From positions 10,193,376-10,257,375 of the forward strand of contig OU696572.1 in NCBI GenBank assembly GCA_916048095.2: a stretch of DNA of 64,000 nucleotides. The letters are read 5' to 3'. Both the position numbers and the translations under genes were made by a program. The notes beneath the pieces were generated by a model. That model had not been told where the DNA came from. It did not search any database and was given only the letters and a program-made list of their open reading frames with translations. Shown here piece after piece: positions 17,939-58,931 of this stretch (the stretch's first letter is position 1; the number at the start of each line of letters is the position of its first letter). Source of the stretch: Sacculina carcini. Lineage: Eukaryota; Arthropoda; Thecostraca; Sacculinidae.

Positions 17939-18292
17939 ATGACGGGTGTCTGGCTGCGGAATTGGCTTCGATGGAGCAATAGTGTGGCTATGGTGGCGGT
18001 TTATATAGCAGTCATGTTGTCAATTGTCGGGCACACCGCTAGCATAATTAACGTGGACCTCAACGGGGGGCTGCGCGAATTTGCCCCGTGCTCTTGTTCG
18101 GAACAGTTGGACGATGGCTATAAGAATTGTCTGAGGGACGAGGGTACCAACGAAGCCACGTGTGAGTGCATCTACATGATCCACATTGATGGCGACAACA
18201 TCACATATGTCTGCTCGATTGACACGTCGCCCGAGCCAAATTTCAACGAAACCAATTTCAATGACTTTATCTTCGGATATTTGAACGACTGA
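17939..18292 (+). CDS. Small secreted six-cysteine protein, type 1, unit 1
   Basis: 117 aa, family unrecognised. Residues about 16-34 (AMVAVYIAVMLSIVGHTAS) are a hydrophobic signal or anchor after a short basic, Trp-containing N-terminus (MTGVWLRNWLRW). The mature part of about 82 residues has Cys51-x-Cys53-x10-Cys64-x10-Cys75-x-Cys77-x14-Cys92, enough for three disulfides, and two N-glycosylation sequons (NIT near 88, NET near 103). The tail is rich in Asn, Phe and Asp and ends GYLND. The ATG lies nine bases after a splice acceptor, so the whole protein is in one exon. A (TA)n run and AATAAA at 18602 follow. Probably exported and disulfide-stabilised; role unknown, with secreted effector, defence peptide or venom-like protein as possibilities. 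Differs from the other type 1 copies by one to a few residues. Confidence 0.75.
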   Translation: MTGVWLRNWLRWSNSVAMVAVYIAVMLSIVGHTASIINVDLNGGLREFAPCSCSEQLDDGYKNCLRDEGTNEATCECIYMIHIDGDNITYVCSIDTSPEPNFNETNFNDFIFGYLND

Positions 18293-18442
18293 ATGGCGAC
18301 TGCGAAGTATTTTGAGTTTTTCAGTGTGTTAGTATGAGTTTCACTGAAGAACAACAGAGAACTCGTCAGAAGAAAATCAAGAGAACTTGAAAAATTGTAT
18401 TGGGTAAAATTTTGTGTGTGATTTCCGGATATCATATGATTT

Positions 18443-18445
<3 letters not shown>

Positions 18446-18495
<50 letters not shown>
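18446..18495. repeat. (TA)n in the 3' UTR, unit 1
   Basis: About 50 bp of TA downstream of the type 1 stop. The tract is about 20 bp in unit 3, 83 bp in unit 4 and 45 bp in unit 5, and nearly absent in units 2 and 6. Confidence 0.9.
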
Positions 18496-18502
<7 letters not shown>

Positions 18503-19140
18503 TGTATTGTTCTAATAATATCTAATGTACTGTCACCTTGTTTGTTATTTCATCTATTTCATGCCATTTTTTCTCTCAATTGTCCGTAAAATTGTGAACA
18601 AAATAAAAAAACGCTAGAATTATTTGAGTTGTTTCAACGGCTGGCATTTTGCCAAAAATTGTGTGATATTCAACATCGGCATCACGCTAGCCAAGAAAGC
18701 TTCTGAAAACTTACCATGGTTCCTTCGTCTGAATCAGTGGTTTGTAAGATGTGTGTAATTTGCCAGTGTTAGAAAATGGCGGAGTTGCCAAGTAGGAAAT
18801 TTAAAGGCGGACATATGGACATATTAACAATATACACAACATTAACATTATACATAGTAACATTATACATATTAACATTATACGGACATATGGACATATT
18901 AACATTATATTATGGACATATGGCTGAAAATTAATAGTTGGCTCATTAAGAAGTGAGGAATCAGATTAAAAAAATTACAGACTACTGGTCTAGACTATGG
19001 CGCAGGATCAATTAATATTTGGCTTATGATTTTCGATGAAAACGACCGAGTCTGTTCTGCTGGGAATATTTATTATTGAATTCCAATTGAACAATTGTTT
19101 TTATATCAGGCGATATAAAAAGCCAGCTGAATAATAATGA

Positions 19141-19434
19141 ATGTGGACGTTTATTTTGGCAGCCGGCCAAGGCGAGAAACTAATAATATTTCTTCTTTTT
19201 CTACTAGTACTTAACACACCTTCACATTCCAACTGGAATTTTTACTTTGAACACACGTTTTTTTGTCAGCGAAGAAACGGCAGTGACACATTGACAGAGT
19301 GTAATTTCGGGAGGAGCTTAATTGATTGGGGGGCTGAATTTTGGGGCGATCAGCCATGCACATGCATCACTATGCAACGTCTTTGCCATAATGTTTACAT
19401 CAACCGATTCTACAGAAAAAATTTTTTTTCTTGA
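19141..19434 (+). other. Candidate 97-aa secreted ORF overlapping repeat R1 (doubtful gene)
   Basis: Begins MWTFILAAGQGEKL, followed by a hydrophobic stretch IIFLLFLLVL and a tail with five cysteines including PCTC. A TATAAAA box at 19114 is only 27 bases from the ATG, so the ATG may lie at or before the transcription start. 'ttcttctttttctactag' inside it also looks like a splice acceptor. Units 3-5 have one T fewer in the run after 'cacacg' and so are frameshifted after about residue 42. The 3' half matches dispersed repeat R1 (compare 5384-5640). It may be a chance ORF in a repeat. Confidence 0.2.
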
Positions 19435-20607: not shown

Positions 20608-20711
20608 TATATAACTGGAATTTCAGCGCAGCGGTGGCAGTACATTGACGACCGCCTCTCGAGTCACACCTGTGTTGCGTAGAAGTCCGCAATCAACGGG
20701 TATAATCACAG
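20608..20711 (+). promoter_or_regulatory. TATA box and noncoding exon 1, unit 2
   Basis: TATATAA at 20608-20614, donor TCACAG|GTGAGA after 20711; near-identical to unit 1 although the downstream gene is the diverged type 2. Confidence 0.6.
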
Positions 20712-21619
20712 GTGAGATGACACAATGCTGAGCGTATAATTGGCTTGTACCGTAGATCGCAGACATTACAGTCAAATATTAATTGAAAATTCTACTTCAT
20801 ATTTCCCATGGTAATTTTGGGTGGCTGCAAATGTTTTCAAGGTAAAAAATCCAGTCTGTCAAAGTTTTATTTATCTAAAAGAACTAGCTTCATTGTAATC
20901 AGAATTATATCAATGTTAATCAAGTACAAGTATGTGCAATAGTTTGGTGAAAAACGTAAATTATCACGTAGATGATAGAAAATGACGGATTTGTTCTCAA
21001 CATATTGTAAATGTGAAACAAAAGGATATTTTGAAAAATACTATCGAGAAAGGTTCCAATTTTGGGTGGGCTTATTGGAGCGTACTACTTGAAAACCCTA
21101 GTATATTTCAGATGGGCATTTGGAACGGTACCAACTGTAGTTCTTGGCAAATTCTTATTTGGAGACGATGTTTCCTTAGGCCGTTCAACCAATTAAGGCA
21201 AAAAGGGCACATGGACAATAGACCCAGGACCGTTGCTAGCTTTCTGGAGGCCCTAAGTAAGCAACAATCAGAGGTCCTAGAATTTTACATATAATCGAAT
21301 TGGTGTTTCACTTATACCTTTCATCTTTTTATAGCGTAGACTCAGAAAATAAAAGGAGTAATAGTAAATTAAGTATTAATACGTGAAGAAAAAATACTAT
21401 GATAAAAAATCAAATTTAAATAAAAAAAATAAAAATAGAATAGAATTGGACAAAGCTACACGAAGTGGTATACATGATAATTCATGTATGATAATTTATG
21501 AAATAAAAATGCCTCAAAGCTGCGATGTATCTTAATGAATATTAATCCTCGAACTAGCAAACGGGCACTATTGAAAAGAATAACTTATTTAGTTGAACCA
21601 ATTACTGTGACTCCAATTG

Positions 21620-21926
21620 TTGAGAGTTTTTTTGCGATGTCAGTTGAACTTGTGTGCACAAGTATCGAAAATGACCGATTTCAGTCAATTTTGACGTTTT
21701 TTTGGGATGTCAGTTGAACTTGTGTGCCCAAGTATCGAAAATGACCGATTTTGGTCAATTTTGACGTTTTTGGGATGCGAATTTTGCTATGTCAGTTGAA
21801 CTTGTGTGCACAAGTATCGAAAATGACCGATTTCGGTCAATTTTGACGTTTTTGGGATGTCAGTGACATACGTGTGCGTAAGTATCGAAAATGACCGATT
21901 TCGGTCAATATTGACGTTTTTGGGTC
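21620..21926. repeat. About 70-bp minisatellite, four copies, unit 2
   Basis: Tandem copies of a unit containing 'gtcagttgaacttgtgtg', 'aagtatcgaaaatgaccgat' and 'caattttgacgttttt'. The last copy is the most diverged. It is inserted just before the hAT-like MITE in the intron, and is found in units 2 and 3 but not 1, 4 or 5. Confidence 0.85.
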
Positions 21927-22777
21927 TGTATGCAGTGGTGGCACCATAGAGGGGAAATGGAAGAGCTAAAGTCTCCCCAAAAACATGTTCCCAGCCTTCC
22001 CTGAGCCCCTCAAATTGCTGACGATGAGCATTTCGAGTGTAGTTCCTGTATGTTTGGCCAAGCCCGCGCATCTATTTCCTTAACCCCCCTCAGGAAAATA
22101 CTGGCGCCGCCACTGCAGCTAGTACACTCCCCTGGGCTGCACCGGTTATAACGGACACGCCAGCATGATTGCAATGCAATTTTGCAATTCATTGACATAG
22201 ATGAGAAAATGAGGAGTGGAAGTGATATGATGCAAGTGATATTGAAAGTGATTTGAGAAAACGGTGCTCTGTTAGTTAAAGGTTAAAGGTTAAAGGTCTC
22301 AAGTGACAGCTGCTACACAGGAATAAGTCGAAGCTTATGAACACACAGGTGTGTCCCGTGCAGCTCGCTGCCACCGCAGAACCGACCCTCTCCACGCTAT
22401 GACGAATTGACGCTATACAATACAACTTATATTGATTTATTCTGGCAGAATGGAAAATGAGAATAAAAATACGGACTTATTTCAACTATTTCTTCCTTCA
22501 ATAAGCATGTTCGTAATTATTAATAAAATCAAAACGATACAGATATTTGTTAGATATATACATATGTGTTATCTTAAATTTCAAATCAATCAATTTTCTG
22601 GTAGTTGACCCCGTTTTATGATCTGAGCTGAACGCTCAAATTCGTCGTAGTTCAGTTGAGTGTCGGATGCTCACTATTCCACTTTGTAGCTTGATATTTG
22701 AGCATGTGATATCGTGTAAAGCGTACCATTTAACACCACTATTTGTCTGGGTTGAATGTGTCTTGCAGGCGTGAAAA

Positions 22778-23062
22778 ATGACGGGTGTCTGGCTGCGCAA
22801 TTGGCTTCAATGGAGCAATAGTGCGGCTATGGTGGCGGTTTATATAGCAGTCATGTTGTCAACTGTCGGGCACACCGCTGGCATACTTAGCGTGGAACAC
22901 AACGGGGAGGTGCGCCAATTTACCCCGTGCCTCTGTTCTAAACTTTTCGACGACAGCTATAAGAATTGTCTGAGGGACGAGGGTACCAACAATGCCACGT
23001 GTGAGTGCGACTACATGGTCCACATTGGTGGCCACTTAAGTCACTTCTGTCAGCTCGATTGA
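22778..23062 (+). CDS. Small secreted six-cysteine protein, type 2, unit 2
   Basis: 94 aa. The signal region is nearly the same as type 1, but the mature part has diverged while keeping all six cysteines (51, 53, 64, 75, 77, 91). Between residues 30 and 87, 22 codons differ from the unit 4 type 1 gene and only two of those changes are silent. An extra base near the sixth cysteine changes frame, so the protein ends FCQLD and lacks the type 1 acidic/Phe tail; the tail sequence survives untranslated behind the stop. It carries one sequon (NAT). The splice acceptor before the ATG (exon from 22769) and the unit 2 promoter are intact. The downstream AATAAA of type 1 is replaced by a pure A-run at about 23405. 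Confidence 0.7.
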   Translation: MTGVWLRNWLQWSNSAAMVAVYIAVMLSTVGHTAGILSVEHNGEVRQFTPCLCSKLFDDSYKNCLRDEGTNNATCECDYMVHIGGHLSHFCQLD

Positions 23063-23504
23063 CAAGTCGCCCGAGCCAAATTTCAACGAAACCAATTTCA
23101 ATGACTTTATCTTCGGATATTTGAACGACTGAATGGCGACTGCGAAGGATTTTGAGTTTTTCAGTGTGTTAGTATGAGTTTCACTGAAGAACAACTGAGA
23201 AATTGTCAGAAGAAAATGAAGAGAACTTGGAAAATTGAATTGGGTAAAATTTTGTGTGTGATTTCCGGATATCATATGATTTTTCTATATATATAATTCT
23301 CATGTATTGTTCTAATAATATCTGATGTACTGTCACCTTGTTTGTTATTTCATCTAATTCATGCCATTTTTCTTTTCTTTTTAAATGGTCCGTAAAATTG
23401 TGAACAAAAAAAAACGCTAGCAATATTTGAGTTGTGCAACGGCTGGCATTTTGCCAAAAATTATGTGATATTTAACATCGGCATCACGCTAGCCAAGAAG
23501 GCTT

Positions 23505-25857
23505 TGTAGTGTCGGAGCGACGGCGAGCGAATCTGAGGTGTGGCTTGACTCACACGTATATTAAAACCCAGACAAGTTGACTCAACTAGACCGACACCTA
23601 GACTAACTTTACTCTATAGCCAGACCCCGATTGTGCCTTGCTGTCATGCGTGACTTCCTCTGATTTGTCCATTTCACAATCGTACGATACACGTCACAAT
23701 ATCGCGATACACGTCGCGCCATCTTTACAATCGCAATACAGTAAACCGCACATGATACAAGACACTACATACCCCCTCACTTAAAGTAATACACACCATC
23801 AGAAAGATAAACGGGGTTTCGTCGATAGTAACAGGTTCTTTGGCAGCGACGCCGCCAGTCTTCTCCGATGCCGGGATCACAGCCGCAGTAGCAGTGAGCT
23901 GTCTGATGCCGACCAGCGGTGCCGTCGCACGTGGTGGTGAGGAATCGTCGAGGTCGATATCTACGGCAGCTACATCGCCTGGTTCGCGAACGGCAAATTA
24001 TCGGAATATCTCCGGAACGTCGGAAGCCGGAGCCCACCGGCTTGCAGACCGCGCCTCGCCGACCTGGCCGCTGCAGACCTGCAAAAATGCCGATGTTGCG
24101 CAAAATGGATCTGATCGGATCACAGCCTGACACTGCTGCGACCTGGTCACCGTCGCTGTCGTGTCGCAGTCGTGACGTCACTGTAGCTGTCGTGACTTCT
24201 CTCTGCTCCCCCTTCTCAGCCAAAGCAGCGACTGTCGTCCGCTGTCGTGCGTTTGCGGAGAATGGCAGTTGACGCAGAGGATGCGCTGTCGGTGCGTCGT
24301 TTTGCTTAAATCTGGTTTTGTGGCAATACCTTTCGTTTGGTAGTAAAGCTGCGACTTCTTTTGGTTCGGCTACTAATATCAACACCTGTCCTTTTCCGGG
24401 TGGAATCGTAACTCCAAGTTTCGCCAGCGTGGAGAAGCCCGATATACCTTCTGAATATCTGGTATCGATAATGAAAAATCAGCCATAGTCGTGCTATCAC
24501 CCACAGTGACTGATACTGGTAGCGTTCCGACGATTTTCAGCGGGCATCGGCCAATGCCGAAAAGCTGAGTGTCAGACGCTGTTACCGCTGAGCCTCTGAA
24601 AAGCTTCCTTGCTAGCGGCAAACTCATGACAGAGACTCTAGCACCAGTATCTACCTGAAGTTCGATGTCTGCTGATTGGCCTGACTCGACTGTGACTCTT
24701 GCGTTGCATGTCAATCTTTTGTCTTGTGCATCTGCGCAGGACAGAATGGTGACCTCTTTGACCGGTTTGCATTTGGTTGTCGCACTCGTTCTTTCCTTTG
24801 ATCCGCACACAACGGCCCAGTGACCACGCCGACCGCAGGCATTACATTTTGCATTACGAGCCGGACAAAAATCTGCTCTGGGTGAGCCGTGCGAACGGCT
24901 GCAGTATGTGCACTGGCTACCTGTCACACCACGCTGTTTGCCTTTACAGGACATTCTCGTGACATTGACAGTGACCGCGTCGGGTTCTTTACTGGAGCTC
25001 ATTAAAGCCGAATGCCTGCACGAAGTCTTGTACGCTTCTGCCAGATCCAGCAGGGAGTCCAGTGTGAGTTTTGCGTCCTGCAGAAATCGTTCGCGGAGTC
25101 TAGGGTGCACCGTATGTTCTACAACCTGGTCTCTTTTCATTTCATCCTGGAGTTGACCGAACTGACAATTCGCCGACAAGCTGCGTAATGAAGAAACGTA
25201 CTCTGCAGTGGTTTCATTCTGGGTCTGCGTTCTTTGTCTGAAGTTGAACCGTTCTGAAAGAACGTTCAGCTTAGGTGAATAAAATTCGCCCATTTGACGT
25301 AGCACTTTGGTATAATCGTCTTCGCCTTCCCTCTTAGGAGACTCTGGAAGGGAGAGAAAAACTCGCTGCGCCTCAGCTCCAGCACAGTGAAGCAAAATCG
25401 CCTTGCGCAGGGACACGGAAAAACTGTCGCCATTGATGGCCGTTAGATAGTTTTCGAACGTAAATTTCCAGTCATTCCAGGGGATGAGAGGCTTTCCCGG
25501 GCGCGATAGAAAAGTGGGAGGTGCTGCGACGCCATCCATACTGATATTTGTAAATAGACAAATTATCAATACCGAAACTAACGTCGCCAAATTGTAGTGT
25601 CGGAGCGACGGCGAGCGAATCTGAGGTGTGGCTTGACTCACACGTATATTAAAACACGGACAAGTTAACTCAACGAGACCTACACCTAGACTGACTTTAC
25701 TCTATAGCCTGACCCCGATTGTGCCTTGCTGTCATGCGTGACTTCCTCTGATTGGTGCATTTCACAATCGTACGATACACGTCACAACATCGCGCTACAC
25801 GTCGCGCCATCTTTACAATCGCAATACAGTAAACCGCACATGATACAAGACACTACA
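23505..25857 (-). mobile_element. Ty3/Gypsy element reduced to gag and protease, block A
   Basis: Two 265-bp LTRs (23505-23769, 25593-25857), TG...CA, differing at roughly 11 sites, flanked by the 5-bp duplication GGCTT. Unit 1 near 18700 is the empty site. A long gag frame (about 25640-24380) shows a CCHC knuckle (CNACGRRGHWAVVC) and a DTG protease motif (VDTGA). There is no reverse transcriptase, RNase H or integrase: a reduced, nonautonomous form. It is present at the same site in block B, so it predates the block duplication. Fossil of moderate age. Confidence 0.85.
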
Positions 25858-26079
25858 GGCTTCTGAAAACTTACCATGGTTCCTTCGTCTAAATCAGTGG
25901 TTTGTAAGATGTGTGCAATTTTCCAGTGTTAGAAAATGGCGGAGTTGCCAAGTAGGAAATTTAAAGTCGGACATATGGACATATTAACATTATACACAAC
26001 AATTAACATTATACATATTAACATTATACATATCAGCATTATACGGACATATGGACATATTAACGTTATATTATGGACA

Positions 26080-29000
26080 TGTAGCCGATGCGCCACACTC
26101 AGTGCATTTCATCTATATTTTATTGTCATTGCTATTGTTATGTATTCATTTGATCGTCACATTATATCGCATTATCATGTTATATATAAATATGTATGTG
26201 CTCGATCTGCTACATGTTAAATTGTTTATTATGCATCGGTGGCGCAAGCAATACAACACACGAGTCTTACCGTACGCGCGGGTTTTGATCGCTGAGGCCG
26301 TTTGCCATTATTTTACTTTTGTAGGCGTCCCTACAAGTATTGACCTCGGTATATTTCTTTTTTTACCAATACTTTTCAGTCGTATTGCGGATTCGTATAT
26401 AGTATGCCTCGTAGTAATCACTCTCATTCCATGGGTTCGGTGAAGGTCGACCTCCCGGTTTTCGACCCACTGGAGGTGGACACCTGGATCGCAATGTGCG
26501 ATAATTTGATGGCCGATAGTGGCATAGAATGTCAGACCTCCATGTTTCGCAAAGTTTTGGCGATGCTACCGAGAACCAATTTCAGGATGGTCAAAGATCT
26601 TGCCACCCAGAACCCACTCGCTAGCAACTGCTACGATTTGCTCAAAACCAGACTGCGAAAGCGACTAGAGCTCACTCCGGCTGAGAAACTACAGCGTCTG
26701 GAGAATCTTCCGCGACAACTGGGCTCTCGGAAACCGTCGGAATTGTACGGCGACCTCGCGGCACTATACCCCAACGACACAGAACACGAAATCATCCAAG
26801 AGGTGTTTCTGTGTCGAATGCCGTCAGACCTCTTACTGCTCTGTCGCGAGTGGCTGGTCTCCAACAATTTGCGGAACACTGCACTGCGCGCAGACGCTCA
26901 CTACCAGCCAGCGGCGACCGTTTCGCTTGCGGCACAGGTGACCGGCGACGCATACACAGCCACAGAGACAGACGAGGAGCCTCTAGTGGCGGCCACGAGA
27001 AGTTTTCGCTCGCCCGCTCAGTCGACACCCAGACGACAACAGCAACCGAAAGACGAGCAGCCGAAAGATTTCGTCGCGCGCTGGTGCCGCCTCCATCGCG
27101 AGTACGGTCCGGCAGCGCGGCGTTGTCTCGGCTCGTGCTCATTCACGTCCGAAATGGCGGGAAACGGGCACGGCAGCCGGCGGTAATAGCCACGTCCGGC
27201 TGCCGTGAAAATCACCGCCTGTTATTCGTCACAGAGATGTCCGGCCGCAAATTCATGGTTGACAGCGGTTCCGAGGTTTCTCTGCTGCCAGCTCGTTCAA
27301 TGGCATCAGCGGCGGCCCTCGACGAGCCTAAGTTACGTGCCGCCAACGGTACATCCATCCAAGTCTTTGAGGTCAACCATCGCTTGACTGTCGATCTGGG
27401 ACTCGGGCGCACATATTCGTTCGGATATATTTCAGCAGCAGTTCCACACGCAATAATCGGAGCGGATTTCCTCCGCGAATTTGGTCTTGTGGTGGACATG
27501 AAACGGCACAAGCTGATCGACAGCGCCACATACTTGTCCACCAGCGGCAACGCGTCGGTCGTCACAACACACCCTGTGCTGACTCACATCAGTGCTGTAC
27601 AGCGACCATGTGACGGACCGGAGTTCGCCGGTGTGCGCGCTTCAGCCGACTTCGCGCAGCTCGTCGCCCCACCTGACGGGTTTCCCGTTGTAAAGGTGCC
27701 TGGTGTCCAGCATCGCATCATCACACGAGGCAATCCAGTGTTCGTCCGCCTACGTCGATTAATGCCAGCCAAACTGTCCGCTGCCAGAAAAGAGTTATCA
27801 GAGTTGGTGGATCTGGGCATTCTGGTTCCCTCGTCATCGTGCTGGTCCAGTCCCATCCACCTCGTTGAAAAGGATGGTCGCACGGCTTTCAGACTGGTCG
27901 GGTGCTACGAGCGACTAAACTCCATCACGGTGCCCGACAGGTATCCCGTTCCCGACATTCAATCATTCGCCGATCAGCTCAGTGGTGCGAATAATTTCAG
28001 CACAATTGATCTCCCGCGTGCTTTTGCTCAAGTTCCTCTGCATCCAGACGATCAGGAAAAATCTGCGATCACAACCCCATTTGGTCTTTTTCAGTATACG
28101 CGTTTGCCTTTCGGTTTGTGTGATGCTGCCCAAACTTTCCAGCGCCTCATGGACACAGTGCTGCGGGGCATGCCACGCGAATTTTGCTACCTCGACGATG
28201 TCCTCGTCTTCTCTTTATATGTCGGGACTCACCGCCGAGATCTGAGGGAACTTTTTCGCAGTCTCGGAGCGGCCGGCCTGGCCATCAAGCCGGAAAAGTG
28301 TGTCTTTGGCCAGCGTATGGTGCGGTTCGTTGGATTCAAAGTATCTGCACGTGGCATCGAGCCCTTACCAGAGAAAATTGCTGATCTCGTGAGCATGCCG
28401 CCGCCCACCAGTTCCACTGAGTGCAGGAGGTACCTAGGCATGATAAACTTTTTCCACCGGTTCATTCCCAGGCTGGCTCAAACTCTCCAGCCCCTTCATG
28501 AGGTGGTGACCAACAAACGAAGTTTCGTGTGGGGACCTTTTCAAGTCTCCGCCTTCGAGAAGACAAAATCAGCGCTGGCTGCCGCTTCATGTTTGGCATT
28601 TCCACAGGCGGATGCTCCGACGAAGCTAGTGGCAGACGCATCTGATTTCGTTGTGGGAGCTGTTGTGCTACAGTTCCAGAATTGTCATTGGGTACCGTTG
28701 GCGTACCACTCCCGCAAACTCACAGGCGCTGCCTTACGATGGTCCACTGGTGATAAGGAGCTGTATGCATTGTTCAGTGCGGTCAAAAGGTTACGGCATC
28801 TACTTGAAGGCCGGCCCGCATTGCAGCTGTGGACCGACCATAAGCCATTGGTGCATGCCTTCACCAGCACCACCGAACGTTCGGCTCGTGTCCAAAGACA
28901 GCTCGCTTATCTGAGTGAGTTTTCTACGGACATACGACATATCAAAGGGTCCGAAAACGCTGTCTCAGACTGTCTCAGTAGGCCCCCGTCAGACGCAACA

Positions 29001-31610
29001 CGAAACGTCTCTCAGCTTTCAGTGGACGCTCGACACTCGCTCGATGTCAGGCGCCTCGCGCTCGCTCAACACAGTGTCGCAGATGTCGCCGAGCCTGCCT
29101 CTTTTCCTTCGCTTCGCGTGGAAGTACGTCCAGTCGAGGGTGTTCCGTCTGGACTGCTGGTGGACGTTTCCACTGGTGTTGATCGACCGCTGCTGCCTGA
29201 GTCACTGCAGCACGAAGTGTATCGCGCGATACATAATCTGCATCACCCAAGTGCCCGTGTCACAAAGCGCCTCGTCTCTGAACGATACGTCTTCAAGCGC
29301 ATTTGGGCCAAGGTGTAATCGTGGGCGAAGACGTGCGTTCGCTGTCAACAATGTAAGATCGCTCGTCACCAACACACTGCCCTGCGTAGACCGCCGACAC
29401 CTAGCGGACGGCTTGAAGCACTCCATGTCGATGTCGTCGGTCCTCCACCAGCTGTCAATAGTTATCAGTACATTTTCACCATCTTCGACCGCTTCACGAG
29501 GTATCCGGAGGCCGTGCCGATGCCTGACGCTACCGTAGCTTCTTGTGCGAGGGTTCTGCTTGACTGGGTAGCGCGATTTGGTTTGTGCCGCTGTGTGACT
29601 TCTGATCGTGGCAGGCAATTCGTTTTGGACCTTTGGCGAGAGTTTTGGTCACTCCTTGGAGTCAGATTGTCCACAACGTGCGCGTACATGCCGCAACAGA
29701 ACGGCCTGGTGGAACGTGTACACCGACAACTAAAAGCGTCTCTTACCGCCGCACTGATGGACAACAACGACTGGCTGACTGCACTGCCTGTTGTCTTGAT
29801 GGGTCTTCGTGCCGCCCACAAGCCTGACATAGACTCCACGCCGGCGGAGATGGTGTTGGGCGAGAAAATGCGGTTGCCTGGTCAGTTCTTTTCGCAGACC
29901 AACTAGGTTCGCCCGGCCTGTGTGGTTGCGTCTCAACTGGCCACTGCCTTCCAGCGACTTCGTCCGACTCCAACGGCGTGGCACCGCCGATACGACACCT
30001 CCCCGTTCGTGTCACAGTCACTGGCCACCGCTTCACACGTCTTTGTACGCGTGGATGCTCATCGGCCGCCATTGACACCGCCGTATCGCGGTCCATTCCC
30101 TGTGCTGGAGCGCGGTGACAAAGCGTTTGTGCTCGACTACGGTGGAAAGACCGACACTGTCGCCGTAGACCGTCTCAAGCCGGCGTTTCTGGTGTGCGAC
30201 AATCAGTCTGGTGTGGACTCTCCCCCGATCTCTACAGATGATCGCGATGCCTGTCAATCAGCCCCTCAAACTGCGCCAGACGCCTCCACCGACGGCCAGA
30301 GTTCGCCTGTCCAGCCGCTGCGTATCGTATGGTCACGCCGCTCTAGACCCGTTCGCCCTCCTGGTCGGTTCTTGTGAATCGGTACTGCGAAGTACCTGGG
30401 GGAGAGCTGTAGCCGATGCGACACACTCAGTGCATTTTATCTTTATTTTATTGGCATTGCTATTACTATGTATTCATTTGATCATCACATTATATCGTAT
30501 TATCATGTTATATATAAATATGTATGTGCTCGGTCTGCTACATGTTAAATAGTTTACTATGCATCGGTGGCGCAAGCAACACACGAGTCTTACCGTACGC
30601 ACGGGTTTTGATCGCTGAGGCCGTTTGCCATTATTTTGCTTTTCGTTATTTGTGTTTATGGGGTGCACCGGCCTCTGGGACCATACGGCACCCCCCAGTC
30701 TATTCACAGCCTAAACACCCAAAAATGATGGACATGAGGAATGGAATGATGAAATAAATAAGTGTGATATTGAACAAAATGAATGTGAAAGTCAAGAAAT
30801 AAAACTCAATAAATAATTCTAAAAGGCAAAAGCCGTAAAAACTCAAAAATGCGGCCCTCAATGACCGCCGATTGCTCCTGTCCGAGAACATCGTGAATAG
30901 TCCGAACGGATCCAAGAAAACGTTGACGCGCCTCTGAGAATGATGGGCATTCCACCAGGATGTGCTGCACGGAGAGACGTACATTACATGCGCTGCACGT
31001 GGGTTCAGGTTGTCCGAGTAGAAGATGGCGATGCGTATCGTACGTGTGACCCACACGCAGACGACAGAGCGCCACTTCCTCGGACCTCTTGCGGCGACAA
31101 GAGCACATCCAATGTCCGATTTCGGGCTTCACAGCTTTTAATTTGTTAGAACCACATTCGTCCCAGGAGAGCTGCCAGCGAGAACGGATAAAACGATGTA
31201 TAATAGGATAAAAGTCCGAATACGGAATGGGAAAGTTAAAATAAAATGAATAAAAGTCTCGTTCAGCAGCTCTTTTTGCGGCTCTGTCAGCTCGCTCGTT
31301 GCCCAAAATACCAATATGGGCCGGAATCCAGCAGAACTTTACACGCTTGCCCTGGTGGTGGATGATGTCAAGAGAGATAAAAATCCTCTGTATAAGAGGA
31401 TGTAATGAGAAAGACGATAATGAAGTTAAAGCACTAAGGGAATCAGATAAAACTAAAAACAATGAAAAAGAAGATGAGCGAATAAAAACCAGGGCCAGCA
31501 GGATAGCGTGAAGTTCAGCCGTGTAAATGGAGGCGCTCGGTGGCAGCGTGCTCGAGCGGCACATACCTCCACTTACAAACGCTTATTTTGCTTTTGTAGG
31601 CGTCCCTACA
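26080..31610 (+). mobile_element. Ty3/Gypsy element, CsRn1-like, block A
   Basis: 5' LTR 26080-26335; 3' LTR starts 30408 and ends 31610, split by a LINE. 4-bp duplication GACA at both sides; empty site in unit 1 near 18915. Parts in order: gag (about 26400-27190) with the CsRn1-type C-x2-H-x9-C-x3-C box, protease (DSG), reverse transcriptase (YLDD), RNase H and integrase to about 30380. The primer site after the 5' LTR resembles the tRNA-Trp complement. The LTRs differ at about 8 of the first 100 positions, so it is old. Broken, with a few breaks. It predates the block duplication. Confidence 0.85.
30644..31582 (-). mobile_element. 5'-truncated RNase H-bearing LINE inserted in an LTR
   Basis: Flanked by the 13-bp duplication TTATTTTGCTTTT at 30631-30643 and 31583-31595, inside the 3' LTR of the element above. 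The minus strand is open from 31564 to 30806 (252 aa) and shows an RNase H domain (YTAELHAILLAL, VLSDSLSAL, GNERADRAAKRAAE), then the C-terminal zinc knuckle C-x2-C...HILVECPSF. Only the end of ORF2 and about 160 bases of 3' UTR remain. No poly(A) tail. An I/LOA/Jockey-type clade is likely. The intact reading frame suggests a fairly recent insertion. Confidence 0.8.
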
Positions 31611-31681
31611 GACATATGGCTGTAAATTAAGAGTTGGCTCATTAAGAAGTGAGGAATCAGAGGAAAAAAATTACACACTAC

Positions 31682-36301: not shown

Positions 36302-36303
36302 AA

Positions 36304-37600: not shown

Positions 37601-37786
37601 ACATGCTCAGCAGAGCATGTGTCCTGTGTGTGTCGAGCTGTTTTGCGTGTGAGAGGTCATGTTTTGTGATGGAAATTATCTCGAATTTGTCTCGGGCCAT
37701 TTGATTGGATGATGCATTTCTGTTTCGTGCTTCAGTTGCAGGTTCGCAGCTTTTCTTGCTCTTCGGCAAATTTCATCTATTGGCGT

Positions 37787-38759: not shown

Positions 38760-38867
38760 ATTATTTACAGAGACCACTTCACACTGTCCTGTAAGACCTC
38801 ACTTCCCTAGCGGAGTTCAAACACGATTCATACACATAACACAACAACACCCAAGGCGAGGAAATAT

Positions 38868-44126: not shown

Positions 44127-44230
44127 TATATAACTGGACTTTCAGCGCAGCGGTGGCAGTACATTGACGACCGCCTCTCGAGTCACACCTGTGTTGCGTA
44201 GAAGTCCGTAATCAACGGTGATAATCACAG
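44127..44230 (+). promoter_or_regulatory. TATA box and noncoding exon 1, unit 3
   Basis: TATATAA at 44127-44133, donor TCACAG|GTGAGA after 44230. Confidence 0.6.
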
Positions 44231-45149: not shown

Positions 45150-45446
45150 TTTTTGCGATGTCAGTTGAACTTGTGTGCACAAGTATCGAAAATGACCGAT
45201 TTCAGTCAATTTTGATGTTTTTTGGGATGTCAGTTGAACTTGTGTGCCCAAGTATCGAAAATGACCGATTTCGGTCAATTTTGACGTTTTTGGGATGCGA
45301 ATTTTGCTATGTCAGTTGAACTTGTGTGCACAAGTATCGAAAATGACCGATTTCGGTCTATTTTGACGTTTTTGGGATGTCAGTGACATACGTGTGCGTA
45401 AGTATCGAGAATGACCGATTTCGGTCAATATTGACGTTTTTCGGTC
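45150..45446. repeat. About 70-bp minisatellite, four copies, unit 3
   Basis: Near-identical to 21620-21926 in unit 2, in the same intron position. Confidence 0.85.
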
Positions 45447-45452
45447 TGTATG

Positions 45453-45635
45453 CAGTGGTGGCACCATAGAGGGGAAATGGAAGAGCTAAAGTCTCCCCAA
45501 AAACATGTTCCCAGCCTTCCCTGAGCCCCTCAAATTGCTGACGATGAGCATTTCGAGTGTAGTTCCTGTATGTTTGGCCAAGCCCGCCTATCTATTTCCT
45601 TAACCCCCCTCAGGAAAATACTGGCGCCGCCACTG
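45453..45635. mobile_element. Small hAT-like MITE in unit 3 intron
   Basis: Counterpart of 17111-17284, with the left end read as CAGTGGTGGCACC, as in unit 2. Confidence 0.6.
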
Positions 45636-46298
45636 CAGCTAGTACACTCCCCTGGGCTGCACCGGTTATAACGGACACGCCAGCATGATTGCAATGCAAT
45701 TTTGCAATTCATTGACATAGATGAGAAAATGAGGAGTGGAAGTGATATGATGCAAGTCATATTGAAAGTGATTTGAGAAAACGGTGCTCTGTTAGTTAAA
45801 GGTTAAAGGTTAAAGGTCTCAAGTGACAGCTGCTACACAGGAATAAGTCGAAGCTTATGAACACAGAGGTGTGTCCCGTGCAGCTCGCTGCCACCGCAGA
45901 ACCGACCCTCTCCACGCTCTGACGAATTGACGCTATACAATACAACTTATATTGATTTATTCTGGCAGAATGGAAAATGAGAATAAAAATACGGACTTAC
46001 TTCAACTATTTCTTCCTTCAATAAGCATGTTCGTAATTATTAATAAAATCAAAACGATACAGATATTTGTCAGATATATACATATGTGTTATCTTACATT
46101 TTCAAATCAATCAATTTTCTAGTAGTTGACCCCGTTATATGATCTGACCTGAAGGCTTAAATTCGTCGTAGTTCAGTTGAGTGTCAGATGCTCACTATTC
46201 CACTTTGTAGCTTGATATTTGAGCATGTGATATCGTGTAAAGCGTACCATTTAACACCACTATTTGTCTGGGTTGAATGTGTCTTGCAGGCGTGAAAA

Positions 46299-46652
46299 AT
46301 GACGGGTGTCTGGCTGCGGAATTGGCTTCGATGGAGCAATAGTTCGGCTATGGTGGCGGTTTATATAGCAGTCATGTTGTCAATTGTCGGGCACACCGCT
46401 AGCATAGTTAACGTGGACCTCAACGGGGGGCTGCGCGAATTTGCCCCGTGCTCTTGTTCGGAACAGTTGGACGATGGCTATAAGAATTGTCTGAGGGACG
46501 AGGGTACCAACGAAGCCACGTGTGAGTGCATCTACATGATCCACATTGATGGCGACAACATCACATATGTCTGCTCGATTGACACGTCGCCCGAGCCAAA
46601 TTTCAACGAAACCAATTTCAATGACTTTATCTTCGGATATTTGAACGACTGA
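46299..46652 (+). CDS. Small secreted six-cysteine protein, type 1, unit 3
   Basis: 117 aa, differing from the unit 1 protein at residue 16 (Ser) and 38 (Val). Same signal region, six cysteines and two sequons. The exon starts at 46290 after 'gtcttgcag'. AATAAA at 46930. The promoter module is at 44127, so the intron is about 2.06 kb, longer than in units 1 and 4 because of the minisatellite. Confidence 0.75.
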   Translation: MTGVWLRNWLRWSNSSAMVAVYIAVMLSIVGHTASIVNVDLNGGLREFAPCSCSEQLDDGYKNCLRDEGTNEATCECIYMIHIDGDNITYVCSIDTSPEPNFNETNFNDFIFGYLND

Positions 46653-48906: not shown

Positions 48907-49010
48907 TATATAACTGGAATTTCAGCGCAGCGGTGGCAGTACATTGACGACCGCCTCTCGAGTCACACCTGTGTTGCGTAGAAGTCCGCAATCAACGGGG
49001 ATAATCACAG
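48907..49010 (+). promoter_or_regulatory. TATA box and noncoding exon 1, unit 4
   Basis: TATATAA at 48907-48913, donor TCACAG|GTGAGA after 49010. Confidence 0.6.
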
Positions 49011-49981
49011 GTGAGATGACACAATGCTGAGCGTATAATTGGCTTGTACCGTAGATCGCAGACATTACAGTCAAATATTAATTGAAAATTCTACTTCATA
49101 TTTCCCATGGTAATTTTGGGTGGCTGCAAATGTTTTCAAGGTAAAAAATCCAGTCTGTCAAAGTTTTATTTATCTAAAAGAACTAGCTTCATTGTAATCA
49201 GAATTATATCAATGTTAATCAAGTAAAAGTATGTGCAATAGTTTGATGAAGAACGTAAATTATCACGTAGATGATAGAAAATGACGGATATTTTCTCAAC
49301 ATATTGTAAATGTGAAACAAAAGGATAATTTGAAAAATACTATCGGAGAAAGGTTCCAATTTTGGGTGGGCTTATTGGAGCGTACTACTTGAAAACCCTA
49401 GTATATTTCAGATGAGCATTTGGAACGGTACCAACTGTAGTTCTTGGCAAATCCTTATTTGGAGTCGATGTTTCCTGAGGCCTTTCAACCAATTAAGGCA
49501 AAAAGGGCACATGGACAATAGACCCAGGACCGTTGCTAGCTTTCTGGAGGCCCTAGGTAAGCAACAATCAGAGGTCCTAGAATTTTACATATAATCGAAT
49601 TGGTGTTTCACTTATACCTTTCATCTTTTGATAGCGTAGACTCAGAAAATAAAAAGAGTAATAGTAAATCAAGTATTAATACGTGAACAAAAAATATATA
49701 AAATGATATGATAAAAAATATGATATGATAAAATGATATGATAAAAAATCAAATTTAAAAAAATGATATGATAAAAAATCAAATTTAAAAAAATAAAAAT
49801 AAAAATAGAATAGAATTGGACAAAGCTACACGAAGTGGTATACATGTATGATAATTTATGAAATAAAAATGCCTCAAAGCTGCGATGTATCTTAATGAAT
49901 ATTAATCCTCGAACTAGAAAAAAGGGCACTATTGAAAAGAATTACATCTTTACTGTGACTCCAGTTGTTGAGGTCTGTACG

Positions 49982-50155
49982 CAGTGGCGGCACCATAGAG
50001 GGGGAATGGACAGGCTGAATTATCCCCACAAATTCCCTGAGCCCCTCAAATTACCATGATAAACATGAACATTTCGAGTGGAGTTTCTCATGTTTCGCCA
50101 AGCCTGCGCATCTATTTCCTTAACCCCCCTCAGGAAAATACTGGCGCCGCCACTG
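49982..50155. mobile_element. Small hAT-like MITE in unit 4 intron
   Basis: Counterpart of 17111-17284 with matching ends CAGTGGCGGCACC and GGCGCCGCCACTG. Confidence 0.6.
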
Positions 50156-50809
50156 CAGCTAGTACACTCCCCTGGGCTGCACCGGTTATAGCGGACACGC
50201 CAGCATAAATGCAATGCAATTTTGCAATTCATTGACATAGATGAGAAAATGAGGAGTGGAAGTGATGTGATGCAAGTCATATTGAAAGTGATTTGAGAAA
50301 ACAGTGCTCTGTTAGTTAAAGGTTAAAGGTCTAAGTGACAGCTGCTACACAGGAATAAGCCGAAGCTTATGAATACACAGGTGTGTCCCGTGCAGCTCGC
50401 TGCCACCGCAGAACCGACCATCTCCATGCTATGACGAATTGACGCTATACAATACAACTTATATTGATTTATTCTGGCAGACTGGAAAATGAGAATAAAA
50501 ATACGGACGTACTTCAGCTATTTCTTCCTTCAATAAGCATGTTCGTAATTATTAATGAAATCAAAACGATACAGATATTTGTCAGATATATACATATGTG
50601 TTATCTTAAATTTCAAATCAATCAATTTTCTGGTAGTTGACCCCGTTTTATTATCTGAACTGAACGCTCAAATTCGTCGTAGTTCAGTTGAGTGTCGGAT
50701 GCTCACTATTCCACTTTGTAGCTTGATATTTGAGCACGTGATATCGTGTATAGCGTACCATTTAACACCACTATTTGTCTGGGTTGAATGTGTCTTGCAG
50801 GCGTGAAAA

Positions 50810-53278: not shown

Positions 53279-53315
<37 letters not shown>

Positions 53316-53496
53316 GGTCTTGCGTTTGTTTTCACGAAAATTCCGTTGAAATTTTTCCAAAAGGTTAAATACGCGTCTATATTTTTGTTCAGACAAAAAA
53401 CCCGCGATCCATATAGCCTTATTTTTTTGTCGTGTAACGTGCGGTCAATGGCGAGCGATATACTGTGACTCATGAGATCAGGTGTGAGTAATCTGC

Positions 53497-53600
53497 TATA
53501 TAACTGGAATTTCAGCGCAGCGGTGGCAGTACATTGACGACCGCTTCTCGAGTCACACCTGTGTTGCGTAGAAGTCCGCAATCAACGGGTATAATCACAG
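53497..53600 (+). promoter_or_regulatory. TATA box and noncoding exon 1, unit 5
   Basis: TATATAA at 53497-53503, donor TCACAG|GTGAGA after 53600. Confidence 0.6.
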
Positions 53601-54510
53601 GTGAGATGACACAATGCTGAGCGTATAATTGTTTTGTACCGTAGATCGCGGACATTACAGTCAAATATTAATTGAAAATTCTACTTCATATTTCCCATGG
53701 TAATTTCGGGTGGCTGCAAATGTTTTCAAGGTAAAAAATCCAGTCTGCCAAAGTTTTATTTATCTAAAAGAACTAGCTTCATTGTAATATGAAATATACC
53801 AATGTTAATCAAGTACAAGTATGTGCAATAGTTTGATGAAGAACGTAAATTATCACGTAGATGATAGAAAATGACGGATATTTTCTCAACATATTGTAAA
53901 TGTGAAACAAAAGGATAATTTGAAAAATACTATCGGAGAAAGGTTCCAATTTTGGGTGGGCTTATTGGAGCGTACTACTTGAAAACCCTAGTATATTTCA
54001 GATGAGCATTTGGAAAGGTACCAACTGTAGTTCTTGGCAAATCCATATTTGGAGACGATGTTTCCTGAGGCCTTTCAACCAATTAAGGCAAAAAGGGCAC
54101 ATGGACAATAGACCCAGGACCGTTGCTAGCTTTCTGGAGGCCCTAGGTAAGCAACAATCAGAGGTCCTAGAATTTTACATATAATCGAATTGGTGTTTCA
54201 CTTATACCTTTCATCTTTTTATAGCGTAGACTCAGAAAATAAAAGGAGTAATAGTAAATTAAGTATTAATACGTGAAGAAAAAATACTATGATAAAAAAT
54301 CAAATTTAAATAAAAAAAATAAAAATAGAATAGAATTGGACAAAGCTACACGAAGTGGTATACATGATAATTCATGTATGATAATTTATGAAATAAAAAT
54401 GCCTCAAAGTTGCGATGTATCTTAATGAATATTAATCCTCGAACTAGCAAAAGGGCACTATTGAAAATAATTACATCTTCACTGTGACTCCAGTTGTTGA
54501 TGTCTGTATG

Positions 54511-54685
54511 CAGTGGCGGCACCATAGAGGGGAAATGAACAGGCTGAATTATCCCCACAAATTCCCTGAGCCCCTCAAATTACCATGATAAACATGAACA
54601 TTTCGAGTGTAGTTCCTGTATGTTTCGCCAAGCCCGCGCATCTATTTCCTTAACCCCCCTCAGGAAAATACTGGCGCCGCCACTG
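54511..54685. mobile_element. Small hAT-like MITE in unit 5 intron
   Basis: Counterpart of 17111-17284. Confidence 0.6.
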
Positions 54686-54845
54686 CAGCTAGTACACTCC
54701 CCTGGGCTGCACCGGTTATAACGGACACGCCAGCATAAATGCAATGCAATTTTGCAATTCATTGACATAGATGAGAAAATGAGGAGTGAAAGTGATATGA
54801 TGCAAGTCATATTGAAAGTGATTTGAGAAAACAGTGCTCTGTTAG

Positions 54846-55183
54846 TTAAAGGTTAAAGGTTAATGGCCTCAAGTGACAGCTGCTACACAGGAATAAGTCG
54901 AAGCTTATGAACACAGAGGTGTGTCCCGTGCAGCTCGCTGCCACCGCAGAACCGACCCTCTCCACACTATGACGCCACAAGGACGTAATACGTATTAAAG
55001 AGGGTCACCTCCCCAGAATGCATGACACAACACATGACTGACATCTGGTACCATCATTTACTGCTGGGTGGACAGGGACTGTTGGATTATAGAATTCGGC
55101 CAAATAAATTGTCCTCCGCCGGGTTTCGAACCACGGACCCCCGCTCGTGAGGCGGTTGTGCTAACAACTGCACCACGGAGTCC
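54846..55183 (-). mobile_element. tRNA-Val SINE, full length, unit 5
   Basis: Inverse copy of the whole SINE. The tRNA head is at the 55183 end (anticodon loop CTCACGA, B box GGTTCGAAACCC) and the 'ttaaccttt' tail at 54846. The other units have lost the head, body start and about 150 bases of neighbouring sequence, joining 'ctatgacg' to 'aattgacgctatacaat'. Unit 5 therefore keeps the ancestral state. Confidence 0.8.
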
Positions 55184-55677
55184 AACATTGATCTGATTCT
55201 TAATGTCCTTTATCCTCTAATTCAACATTGTTATATTGTGTGCTCAATCTTATTTCCACTCTAAGCAAATATAAAGCAAATTCTACGACAACAATACACG
55301 TTTGGATAAAAGGAAACACTACAATACAACTTATATTGATTTATACTGGCAGACTGGAAAATGAGAATAAAAATACGGACTTACTTCAGCTATTTCTTCC
55401 TTCAATAAGCATGTTCGTAATTATTAATAAAATCAAAACGATACAGATATTTGTCAGATATACATGTGTTATCTTAAATTTCAAATCAATCAATAATCTG
55501 GTAGTTGACCACGTTTTATGATCTGAACTGAACGCTCAAATTCGTCGTAGTTCAGTTGAGTGTCGGATGCTCACTATTCCACTTTGTAGCTTGATATTTG
55601 AGCACGTGATATCGTGTATAGCGTACCATTTAACACCACTATTTGTCTGGGTTGAATGTGTCTTGCAGGTGTGAAAA

Positions 55678-56031
55678 ATGACGGGTGTCTGGCTGCGGAA
55701 TTGGCTTCAATGGAGCAATAGTGTGGTTATGGTGGCGGTTTATATAGCAGTCATGTTGTCAATTGTCGGGCACACCGCTAGCATAGTTAACGTGGACCTC
55801 AACGGGGGGCTGCGCGAATTTGCCCAGTGCTCTTGTTCGGAACAGTTGGACGATGGCTATAAGAATTGTCTGAGGGACGAGGGTACCAACAAAGCCACGT
55901 GTGAGTGCATCTACATGATCCACATTGATGGCGACAACATCACATATGTCTGCTCGATTGACACGTCGCCCGAGCCAAATTTCAACGAAACCAATTTCAA
56001 TGACTTTATCTTCGGATATTTGAACGACTGA
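55678..56031 (+). CDS. Small secreted six-cysteine protein, type 1, unit 5
   Basis: 117 aa, the most diverged type 1 copy: Gln11, Val16-Val17, Gln50 in place of Pro just before Cys51, and Lys72. Cysteines and both sequons are kept. Exon from 55669, where the acceptor reads 'cttgcag|gtgtgaaa'. AATAAA at 56335. Promoter module at 53497; intron about 2.07 kb because of the full SINE. Confidence 0.75.
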   Translation: MTGVWLRNWLQWSNSVVMVAVYIAVMLSIVGHTASIVNVDLNGGLREFAQCSCSEQLDDGYKNCLRDEGTNKATCECIYMIHIDGDNITYVCSIDTSPEPNFNETNFNDFIFGYLND

Positions 56032-56181
56032 ATGGCGGCTGCGAAGGATTTTGAGTTTTTCAGTGTGTTAGTATGAGTTTCACTGAAGAACAACAGAGAA
56101 CTCGTCAGAAGAAAATCAAGAGAACTTGGAAAATTGTATTGGGTAAAATTTTGTGTGTGATTTCCGGATATCAAATGATTT

Positions 56182-56183
<2 letters not shown>

Positions 56184-56228
<45 letters not shown>
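56184..56228. repeat. (TA)n in the 3' UTR, unit 5
   Basis: About 45 bp of TA. Confidence 0.9.
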
Positions 56229-56235
<7 letters not shown>

Positions 56236-58646
56236 TGTATTATTCTAATAATATCTAATGTACTGTCACCTTGTTTGTTATTTCATCTATTTCATGCCAT
56301 TTTTTCTCTCAATTGTCCGTAAAATTGTGAACAAAATAAAAAAACGCTAGAAATATTTGAGTTGTTTCAACGGCTGGCATTTTGCCAAAAATTGTGTGAT
56401 ATTTAACATCGTCATCACGCTAGCCAAGAAGACTTCTGAAATCTTACCATGGTTCCTTCGTCTGAATCAGTGCTTTGCAAGCTGTGTGTGAGTTTCCCAG
56501 TGTAAAATTTATGGTCGGACATATGGACATATGCTTTATTAATCCGAATTCATTTATTTTTGTTTCTAGTGACTCACTGACACTTAATTTTGGGCGGAAC
56601 AACTAAATTTATTGGTTTTCTAATCGCTGCTGCTGAAAAATATGAGTTGGCTCATTAAGAAGTGAGGAATCAGATTGAAAAAATTACAGACTACTGGTCT
56701 AGACTGTGGCGAATAATCAATTAATGTTTGGCCTATGATTTTCGATGAAAACGACCGAGTCTGTTCTGCTGGGAAAATTTGTTATTGAATTCCAATTGAA
56801 CAATTGTTTTTATATCAGGCGATATAAAAAGCCAGCTGAATAATAATGAATGTGGACGTTTATTTTGGCAGCCGGCCAAGGCGAGAAACTAATATTATTT
56901 CTTCTTTTTCAACTAGTACTTAACACACCTTCACATTCCAACTGGAATTTTTACTTTGAACACACGTTTTTTGTCAGCGAAGAAACGGCAGTGACACATT
57001 GACAGAGTGTAATTTCGGGAGGAGCTTAATTGATTGGGGGGCTGAATTTTGGGGCGATCAGCCATGCACATGCATCACTATGCAACGTCTTTGCCATAAT
57101 GTTTACATCAACCGATTCTACAAAAAAAATAACTTTTCTTGAACTCTTTCAGTGAACCTCTTGGTTATGAGGAGTTGATGGAAACATTCGGGGGTGGGGG
57201 GCTTCAGCCCCTGAACCCTCCTCTCGATCCGCCAGTGCACATCGAATGAGGCACACATCTATGACTGAATTGAACATTAAAGACACGTATATATTTCTTG
57301 ATATGTTTGCGTGCTTGTTGTTAGACAGCCTAGACGACCAGCCCAAGCCAATACTGTTGCAACAGTCACGAAACATTCCATCAGAGCACAAAATCACACT
57401 AATAATAATCAGTCTGTCAACTATTGCCAAAAGACAATTAAACAGGGACGTTTAATTCGAGGGTGCGTTTAATTAGAGGTTTTACGGTATATTTACAGAG
57501 ACCACTTCACACTGTCCTGTAAGACCTCACTTCACTAGCGGAGTTCAAACAGGATTCATACACATAACACAATAACACACAAGGCGAGGAAATAACACGC
57601 AAATGAATACGAATAGGATTTATGTTGTCATTCGAATAAACGCAGGCTGCATAAATTCAACGTTCCAGCACAGAATGAACACTGCTGACTCATAGAATAT
57701 TGTGGTCTTGCATTGTGTGGTTTACTCACCACACAACGTTGATTTTTGACGCAATGCTGGGCTGGAGTGCATGATAAAAATGCAGCCAAAATAGATGCTT
57801 GTGGAGCGTTGTTCTAAATAAGCTGTCATCAAAACCTCTGGTGGATAGCATGAAATAATTACATTTTTTCTTAAAATTACAAGAACACGTACACTTTTTC
57901 TCATTTGAAGCTATAATAATTAATTATTTACAATCATATACACGTTTTAAATTGCCTTTGAGATAGAGTTGCCATTAAATATGCGCACAACGAAACGAAA
58001 TATGTTGTATGTGTTATACATTTGTCATTTAATAGATTTACATTCAACGATTCCATTCAGCGCACAGAAATTAGAAAAAAAGAAAAGAGCACCTAAAAAT
58101 GACACACGCACACGCACACACACACACACACACACACTCACCGGTCTTGCGTTCGTTTTTACGAAAATTCCGTTGAAATTTTTACACAGGAATAAGCCGA
58201 AGCTTATGAATACACAGGTGTGTCCCGTGCAGCTCGCTGCCACCGCAGAACCGACCCTCTCCACGCTATGACGAATTGACGCTATACAATACAACTTATA
58301 TTGATTTATTCTGGCAGAATGGAAAATGAGAATAAAAATACGGACGTACTTCAACTATTTCTTCCTTCAATAAGCATGTTCGTAATTATTAATAAAATCA
58401 AAACGATACAGATATTTGTCAGATATATACATATGTGTTATCTTAAATTTCAAATCAATCAATTTTCTGGTAGTTGACCCCGTTTTATTATCTGAACTGA
58501 ACGCTCAAATTCGTCTTAGTTCAGTTGAGTGTCGGATGCTCACTTTTCCACTTTGTAGCTTGATATTTGAGCACGTGATATCGTGTATAGCGTACCATCT
58601 AACACCACTATTTGTCTGGGTTGAATGTGTCTTGCAGGCGTGAAAA

Positions 58647-58931
58647 ATGACGGGTGTCTGGTTGCGAAATTGGCTTCGATGGAGCAATAGTGTGGTTATG
58701 GTGGCGGTTTATATAGCAGTCATGTTGTCAACTGTCGGGCACACCGCTGGCATACTTAGCGTGGAACACAACGGGGAGGTGCGCCAATTTACCCCGTGCC
58801 TCTGTTCTAAACTTTTCGACGACAGCGATAAGAATTGTCTGAGGGACGAGGGTACCAACAATTCCACGTGTGAGTGCGACTACATGGTCCACATTGGTGG
58901 CCACTTACATCACTTCTGTCAGCTCGATTGA
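58647..58931 (+). CDS. Small secreted six-cysteine protein, type 2, unit 6 (promoterless copy)
   Basis: 94 aa, differing from the unit 2 type 2 protein at only a few residues (Arg11, Val16-Val17, Asp at 60-61, Ser73, His88). All six cysteines and the short FCQLD-like end are kept, and the NST sequon replaces NAT. The acceptor 'gtcttgcag' before the ATG survives, but the TATA box and noncoding exon are deleted from this unit, as is the AATAAA. The open frame therefore needs another promoter, or this is a recent pseudogene. Confidence 0.55.
   Translation: MTGVWLRNWLRWSNSVVMVAVYIAVMLSTVGHTAGILSVEHNGEVRQFTPCLCSKLFDDSDKNCLRDEGTNNSTCECDYMVHIGGHLHHFCQLD

Follow-up and report, generated by a model that had tools for sequence, protein, structure and literature searches.

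What are the small, cysteine-rich proteins that one short region of the genome of the parasitic barnacle Sacculina carcini encodes several times over, and what might have multiplied their genes? The window that we analysed, by which we mean the whole stretch of 64,000 nucleotides (G000:C3:10193376-10257375), holds six such genes, and an earlier note made from the sequence alone had described them as an unrecognised tandem family of secreted six-cysteine proteins. All six open reading frames (ORFs) are present where that note placed them, four encoding proteins of 117 amino acids (type 1) and two encoding proteins of 94 amino acids (type 2). Our analysis of the sequence makes it probable that they belong to an orphan, cluster-restricted and apparently lineage-specific family of small, acidic six-cysteine proteins, probably secreted and N-glycosylated, in which type 1 has been amplified for dosage. 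The coding sequences (CDS) in the window are as follows.

17939..18292, plus strand: type 1 CDS, copy a; 117 amino acids, CxCx10Cx10CxCx14C, hydrophobic leader
22778..23062, plus strand: type 2 CDS, copy a; 94 amino acids, a frameshifted derivative with the tail lost
46299..46652, plus strand: type 1 CDS, copy b; 117 amino acids
50810..51163, plus strand: type 1 CDS, copy c; 117 amino acids
55678..56031, plus strand: type 1 CDS, copy d; 117 amino acids
58647..58931, plus strand: type 2 CDS, copy b; 94 amino acids, no exon 1 or TATA of its own found

The count of six genes holds for the window, but the family is larger, with at least eight members: five type 1 genes (four in the window), two type 2 genes and one divergent paralog. 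The fifth type 1 copy (L019:3357-3710) and the paralog (L019:5673-6014) lie beyond the window. We searched a genome of 264,436,087 bases in 43 contigs, and the match counts are lower bounds, since the search scores the best candidates only; all eight members fell on contig C3 within 62 kb. Used as a DNA query, the type 1 exon returned at least seven matches, every one of them on C3 between 10.211 and 10.271 Mb, and a protein query at E<=10 returned at least ten, made up of the seven type 1 and type 2 copies, the paralog (E 9e-14, 33% identity, 10273087-10273365 on C3) and two out-of-frame tail pieces of the type 2 copies. The paralog, which is single in the genome, returned itself and the same seven copies when it served as the query. 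This confinement of the matches to one cluster, rather than their dispersal, argues against a transposon origin, and for the candidates scored we reject a transposon-encoded gene on these grounds.

All six proteins of the window have the cysteine core C-x-C-x10-C-x10-C-x-C that had been claimed for them, followed by x14C in type 1 or x13C in type 2. In a six-frame search of 104 kb (the window plus 40 kb downstream), a strict regular expression for this spacing gave eight matches, which are exactly the family members, and it gave none in 30 simulated sequences of 104 kb (Markov-1). When the expression is loosened, it also picks up numerous (TG)n repeats in the real DNA, and therefore only the strict form is specific. 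The paralog keeps the same spacing at 33-35% identity, which points to an older, constrained family; besides the six equally spaced cysteines, it has in common with type 1 a [DE][DE]GT[ND] motif, the sequon N-x-T-Y-V-C and, following the final cysteine, [IV]DTS. The hydrophobic leader that the earlier note had also reported is seen in the paralog and in the one protein of each type that we tested alongside it; in all three the most hydrophobic 15 residues are 16-30, with a Kyte-Doolittle mean of 2.2-2.7. Judged by this leader, secretion of the proteins is likely. In its assumed mature form, type 1 has an isoelectric point of 4.05 and six cysteines in 83 residues.

Within the searches made, the description of the family as unrecognised stands. 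No homologue was found among about 5.8 billion proteins with a type 1 query alone, and an alignment of three sequences run against the same proteins gave 30 candidates, none of them at E<=10. The best Pfam scores were 15.6 bits for type 1 (DUF7494) and 15.9 bits for the paralog (ECPIP), each against a cut-off of 27, and type 2 had no Pfam match; in NCBIfam, a prokaryote-oriented library, the best score was 11.6 against a cut-off of 700. The Protein Data Bank (PDB) gave nothing at E<=10 with type 1 or the paralog, and the best profile match there (E 0.29) is not credible. Among viral contigs, 15 stretches matched a pattern and none encodes a relative. Among the publications listed, none describes the family in its title or in the start of its abstract, which does not imply its absence from print. 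One familiar domain has a similar arrangement: of the eight cysteines of a laminin-type EGF domain, the first six are ordered CxC...C...CxC...C. The order is alike, but the family has six cysteines in its mature part rather than eight, its spacing of 13-14 between the fifth and the sixth is longer than in that domain, and no EGF profile was among the Pfam matches of the family proteins at E<=1.

A complete gene of this family would begin with a TATA promoter and a leader exon that is non-coding, and an intron of 1.7-2.1 kb would separate these from a single coding exon. In six of the seven type 1 and type 2 copies, TATATAA starts 104 bp ahead of an ACAG/GTGAG donor, the intron measures 1703-2068 bp, and nine bases separate the end of the intron from the ATG. 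No ATG occurs between TATA and donor in the stretches examined, so we take the CDS to lie in a single exon. An AATAAA signal follows each of the five type 1 genes, all of which also have the TATATAA and the donor, and none was found in the roughly 400 bases searched for either type 2 gene. The TATA box, leader exon and intron that had been ascribed to every copy are present in five of the six in the window but not in the copy at 58647, which has no TATA or exon 1 of its own; near 58183 the sequence ahead of it passes into a different part of the unit. The paralog has an acceptor-like TTTCCAG nine bases ahead of its ATG (by eye), and its exon 1 was not found. The elements in the window are as follows.

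16123..17929, plus strand: type 1 copy a, candidate promoter TATATAA at 16123, non-coding exon 1 ending at 16226, intron 16227-17929
20608..22768, plus strand: copy at 22778, TATATAA at 20608, exon 1 ending at 20711, intron 20712-22768
44127..46289, plus strand: copy at 46299, TATATAA at 44127, exon 1 ending at 44230, intron 44231-46289
48907..50800, plus strand: copy at 50810, TATATAA at 48907, exon 1 ending at 49010, intron 49011-50800
53497..55668, plus strand: copy at 55678, TATATAA at 53497, exon 1 ending at 53600, intron 53601-55668
18602..18607, plus strand: AATAAA poly(A) signal of type 1 copy a
46930, 51505 and 56335, plus strand: AATAAA of type 1 copies b, c and d
58183, no strand assigned: approximate duplication junction severing the copy at 58647 from any exon 1 of its own

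How does type 2 relate to type 1? Relative to type 1, its DNA carries a one-base insertion shortly 5' of the sixth cysteine codon; in the new frame a TGT, followed by a stop, supplies the sixth cysteine one residue earlier. The 22-residue tail is thereby lost, while in the three pairs that we tabulated the DNA of that tail is still 97-99% identical to type 1. At the ten positions in residues 51-86 where the types differ, the paralog shares the type 1 residue at six, the type 2 residue at one and neither at three. Because the paralog sides with type 1 in this way, type 2 is on this evidence the derived form, presumably having arisen from a type-1-like gene by frameshift. The sequon before the last cysteine and the [IV]DTS after it, found in type 1 and the paralog, are missing from type 2. 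Two of the six copies originally reported look broken or altered, and type 2 is possibly decaying.

The differences between the types are concentrated in the mature domain. In coding nucleotides 102-280, 32-33 of 178 sites differ between type 1 and type 2, as against 19-38 of 766-772 in the flanks (part of the intron, leader, tail and 3' region), and this holds in all ten pairs, with Fisher p values from 6e-8 to 3e-13 that come from non-independent comparisons. The intron, leader and 3' region are 92-100% alike between the types. At twelve sites there is variation within type 1 and within type 2 alike, and at ten of these both types have the same pair of alleles. Every one of the twelve falls upstream of coding nucleotide 50, which is what gene conversion acting on the 5' part would produce. 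Over codons 35-86, a range chosen to stop short of the insertion, synonymous divergence (dS) is 0.12-0.16, nonsynonymous divergence (dN) is 0.21-0.23 and dN/dS is 1.3-1.9 in the same ten non-independent pairs; an earlier mature-domain estimate of 0.75-0.84 was set aside because a gap in the protein alignment had masked the frameshift. For the pair t1a-t2a, nonsynonymous change (22.5 of 124.8 sites in codons 35-86) exceeds that of the flank (30/772, p 1.7e-7), even when the comparison is made with the highest flank count among all pairs (38/772, p 3.3e-6). Synonymous change in this pair is weakly above the flanks (p 0.04, counts rounded), and dN and dS are not different (p 0.60, one pair). The cluster is thus a clear case of neighbouring genes that remain similar in intron and leader but not in the mature domain. 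The pattern suggests gene conversion together with either diversification acting on type 2 or relaxed constraint on an older segment that conversion spared.

Among the five type 1 units (ten pairs) conservation is highest in the mature CDS, at 98.8-100% identity, with 96.1-99.0% in the leader, 94.8-98.7% in intron 1 and 94.7-99.6% in the 3' untranslated region (3'UTR). The mature CDS has four variable codons among the five copies, three nonsynonymous and one synonymous. Between type 1 and the paralog, synonymous sites are saturated over 50 core codons and dN is 0.38.

Tandem amplification, as the earlier note proposed, is supported. The start-to-start distances in the window are 4839, 23521, 4511, 4868 and 2969. 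The unit length of 4.5-4.8 kb given there fits three of these five spacings, which are 4.5-4.9 kb, but not 23521 or 2969. In the longest gap, between the copies at 22778 and 46299, lie long terminal repeat (LTR) elements.

23504..43393, no strand assigned: nested LTR retroelements splitting the array, described only
23504-23769/25592-25857, 26080-26320/30408-30643 and 38868-39065/43196-43393: LTR-like pairs

The last pair bounds a Gypsy-type element (38868-43393) with a minus-strand pol and 198-bp LTRs that are 100% identical. The duplicate segment at about L019:452-456 resembles an empty site with an ATAT target duplication (by eye), and the Gypsy-type insertion would therefore be later than the segmental duplication. 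The segments 22314-47980 and 58183-79051 (extended coordinates) are 95.2-98.6% identical in their main aligned blocks. Tandem repeats of 69-82 bp lie inside intron 1 of two units (21626-21921 and 45149-45379). Two tRNA matches, at 6991-7062 (40.2 bits) and 55114-55180 (31.7 bits), fall inside a repeat of about 340 bp that is present in both orientations and is perhaps a tRNA-derived short interspersed nuclear element (SINE).

Other coding sequences accompany the array. A PP2C phosphatase domain (E 2e-52) lies in a 1500-amino-acid ORF at 9173-13675 whose long C-terminal part has no Pfam family over the cut-off. A 97-amino-acid ORF at 19141-19434, with a hydrophobic leader and five cysteines, has copies near 47445, 52020, 56850 and L019:4528; we considered it as a second secreted gene and rejected it, as it is open in one of the five copies and gives no BLASTP alignment to type 1, and it is probably decayed or due to chance. 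Downstream of the divergent paralog, a 237-amino-acid ORF (L019:7802-8515) contains a PAN domain (E 8e-7). Some 34-36 kb past the downstream end of the window, on the minus strand, is a ZP/cuticlin gene (L021:3973-5886). Among the best 120 of its 944 matches, the best named ones come from two barnacles, Pollicipes pollicipes with 68-73% and Amphibalanus amphitrite with 65-67%, and decapods and insects rank behind them; this gene thus puts the host among the barnacles.

The history that we consider probable would begin with an old duplication that gave rise to the divergent paralog. The five almost identical type 1 genes would have come later, through recent unequal exchange and a segmental duplication that took LTR elements along with it; for these genes dosage amplification of one product is the simplest reading. 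Type 2 would have come from a type-1-like gene through a one-base frameshift that kept a sixth cysteine by chance and removed the C-terminal tail, and its mature domain would have changed much while its 5' part (intron and leader) was kept alike by gene conversion. We infer, along with this order of duplications, that the genes are transcribed and that their products are secreted, glycosylated, folded by disulfides and present as abundant extracellular proteins at the body or host surface. Several points weigh against this reading. The hydrophobic leader could be a membrane anchor; four variable codons are too few to establish purifying selection among the type 1 copies; and the low divergence reaches the 3'UTR in some type 1 pairs, so that it could be due to conversion. 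Haplotypes left unmerged could have raised the number of copies, although no N occurs anywhere in the 104 kb. The protein homologue search needs shared five-residue words, which fast-evolving relatives can escape, and two AlphaFold runs on window sequences gave mean predicted local distance difference test (pLDDT) scores of 40.8 and 49.6, and therefore support no fold.

Alternatively, the cluster may be an arsenal of host-interaction effectors or venom-like proteins, with the crab host as target, in which diversifying selection acts on the mature domain while the leader and promoter side are homogenised. We hold this as a tentative possibility. The excess of nonsynonymous over flank change in the pair t1a-t2a, the dN/dS above 1 in all ten pairs between the types, the concentration of divergence in the mature domain beside a nearly identical leader, and the barnacle affinity of the neighbouring ZP/cuticlin gene are all in keeping with it. 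It also has a published analogue in the SSSGP-1 genes of the Hessian fly, which the part of that account drawn on here (PMC2955719) describes as a species-restricted tandem cluster of seven genes for small secreted proteins, one of them inverted, for which homogenisation is proposed. Six of the seven have highly diverged mature regions, with dN/dS >1 in the moderately diverged pairs tested, while promoter, UTRs, leader and intron stay alike, much as between type 1 and type 2. The correspondence is partial, however: greater likeness of non-coding and leader sequence than of mature CDS is found in the ten pairs between types but does not extend to comparisons of the five type 1 copies with one another, the Sacculina cluster has no more than two types, and its intron is placed in the 5'UTR, as against in or next to the signal-peptide region in the fly; no sequence relation is claimed. 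The effector reading is further weakened because dN/dS is not significantly above 1 in the one pair tested and the ten pairs are not independent, because the somewhat raised synonymous change also fits an older segment spared by conversion, because the near identity of the five type 1 mature domains is the opposite of a diversifying arsenal, and because type 2, with neither tail nor AATAAA, may be decaying. A more elaborate form, which we think unlikely, would see in these proteins host-facing effectors that only parasitic barnacles possess, with an undescribed disulfide scaffold, a constant high-dosage type 1 and a fast-changing short type 2 in which a frameshift preserved six cysteines, and with conversion homogenising the surroundings and sparing the mature domain.

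A structural, cuticular or adhesive (cement-like) barnacle protein amplified for output seems rather improbable. Type 1 is acidic, cysteine-containing and tandemly amplified, dosage amplification suits a structural product, and PMC8561864 appears to deal with how barnacle cement proteins have been duplicated. Like these proteins, the cement protein CP20 of Balanus albicostatus is secreted and cysteine-rich, but it has 18 cysteines in four repeats according to the portion of PMC9597634 used here, as against six in the present family, and no sequence match to it was found; nor did single-sequence searches of the protein database or PDB give a hit.

It is similarly improbable that some of the copies are due to faulty assembly, with the segments 22314-47980 and 58183-79051 representing two haplotypes placed in tandem, a reading that is compatible with dosage amplification and would lower only the number of copies. 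The identity of their main blocks falls within the allelic divergence of marine invertebrates, but the N-free 104 kb, the want of a second copy of the stretch around the PP2C gene in a self-BLAST and the single occurrence of the paralog in the genome all speak against it. That the array is largely non-functional, its ORFs surviving because the duplications are recent, would agree with the type 2 frameshift and lost AATAAA, the copy without a promoter and type 1 differences too few for judging selection, but is very doubtful given a paralog that keeps its open frame and full cysteine pattern despite saturated synonymous sites and the presence of TATATAA, donor and AATAAA in all five type 1 copies.

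Among the systems that we found, the SSSGP genes and the bacteriocyte-specific cysteine-rich (BCR) proteins of aphids appear to be the nearest published parallels in gene organisation. As far as the excerpt of PMC3574423 goes, BCR proteins are orphans of 67-108 amino acids with a conserved leader, are expressed in bacteriocytes and mostly have six cysteines, whose spacing hardly varies among four members, and three of their genes lie within 20 kb. They resemble the Sacculina family in being small, clustered orphans with a leader and six cysteines, but they belong to insects, and we claim no relation. For rhizocephalans, 852 classical excretory/secretory proteins have been predicted in a transcriptome study (PMC9664023, in the part available). 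Small secreted cysteine-rich orphan families are often where parasites and venomous animals keep their lineage-specific tools, and the cluster described here offers a specific candidate, open to test, for the still unknown proteins that rhizocephalan barnacles use in dealing with their crab hosts.

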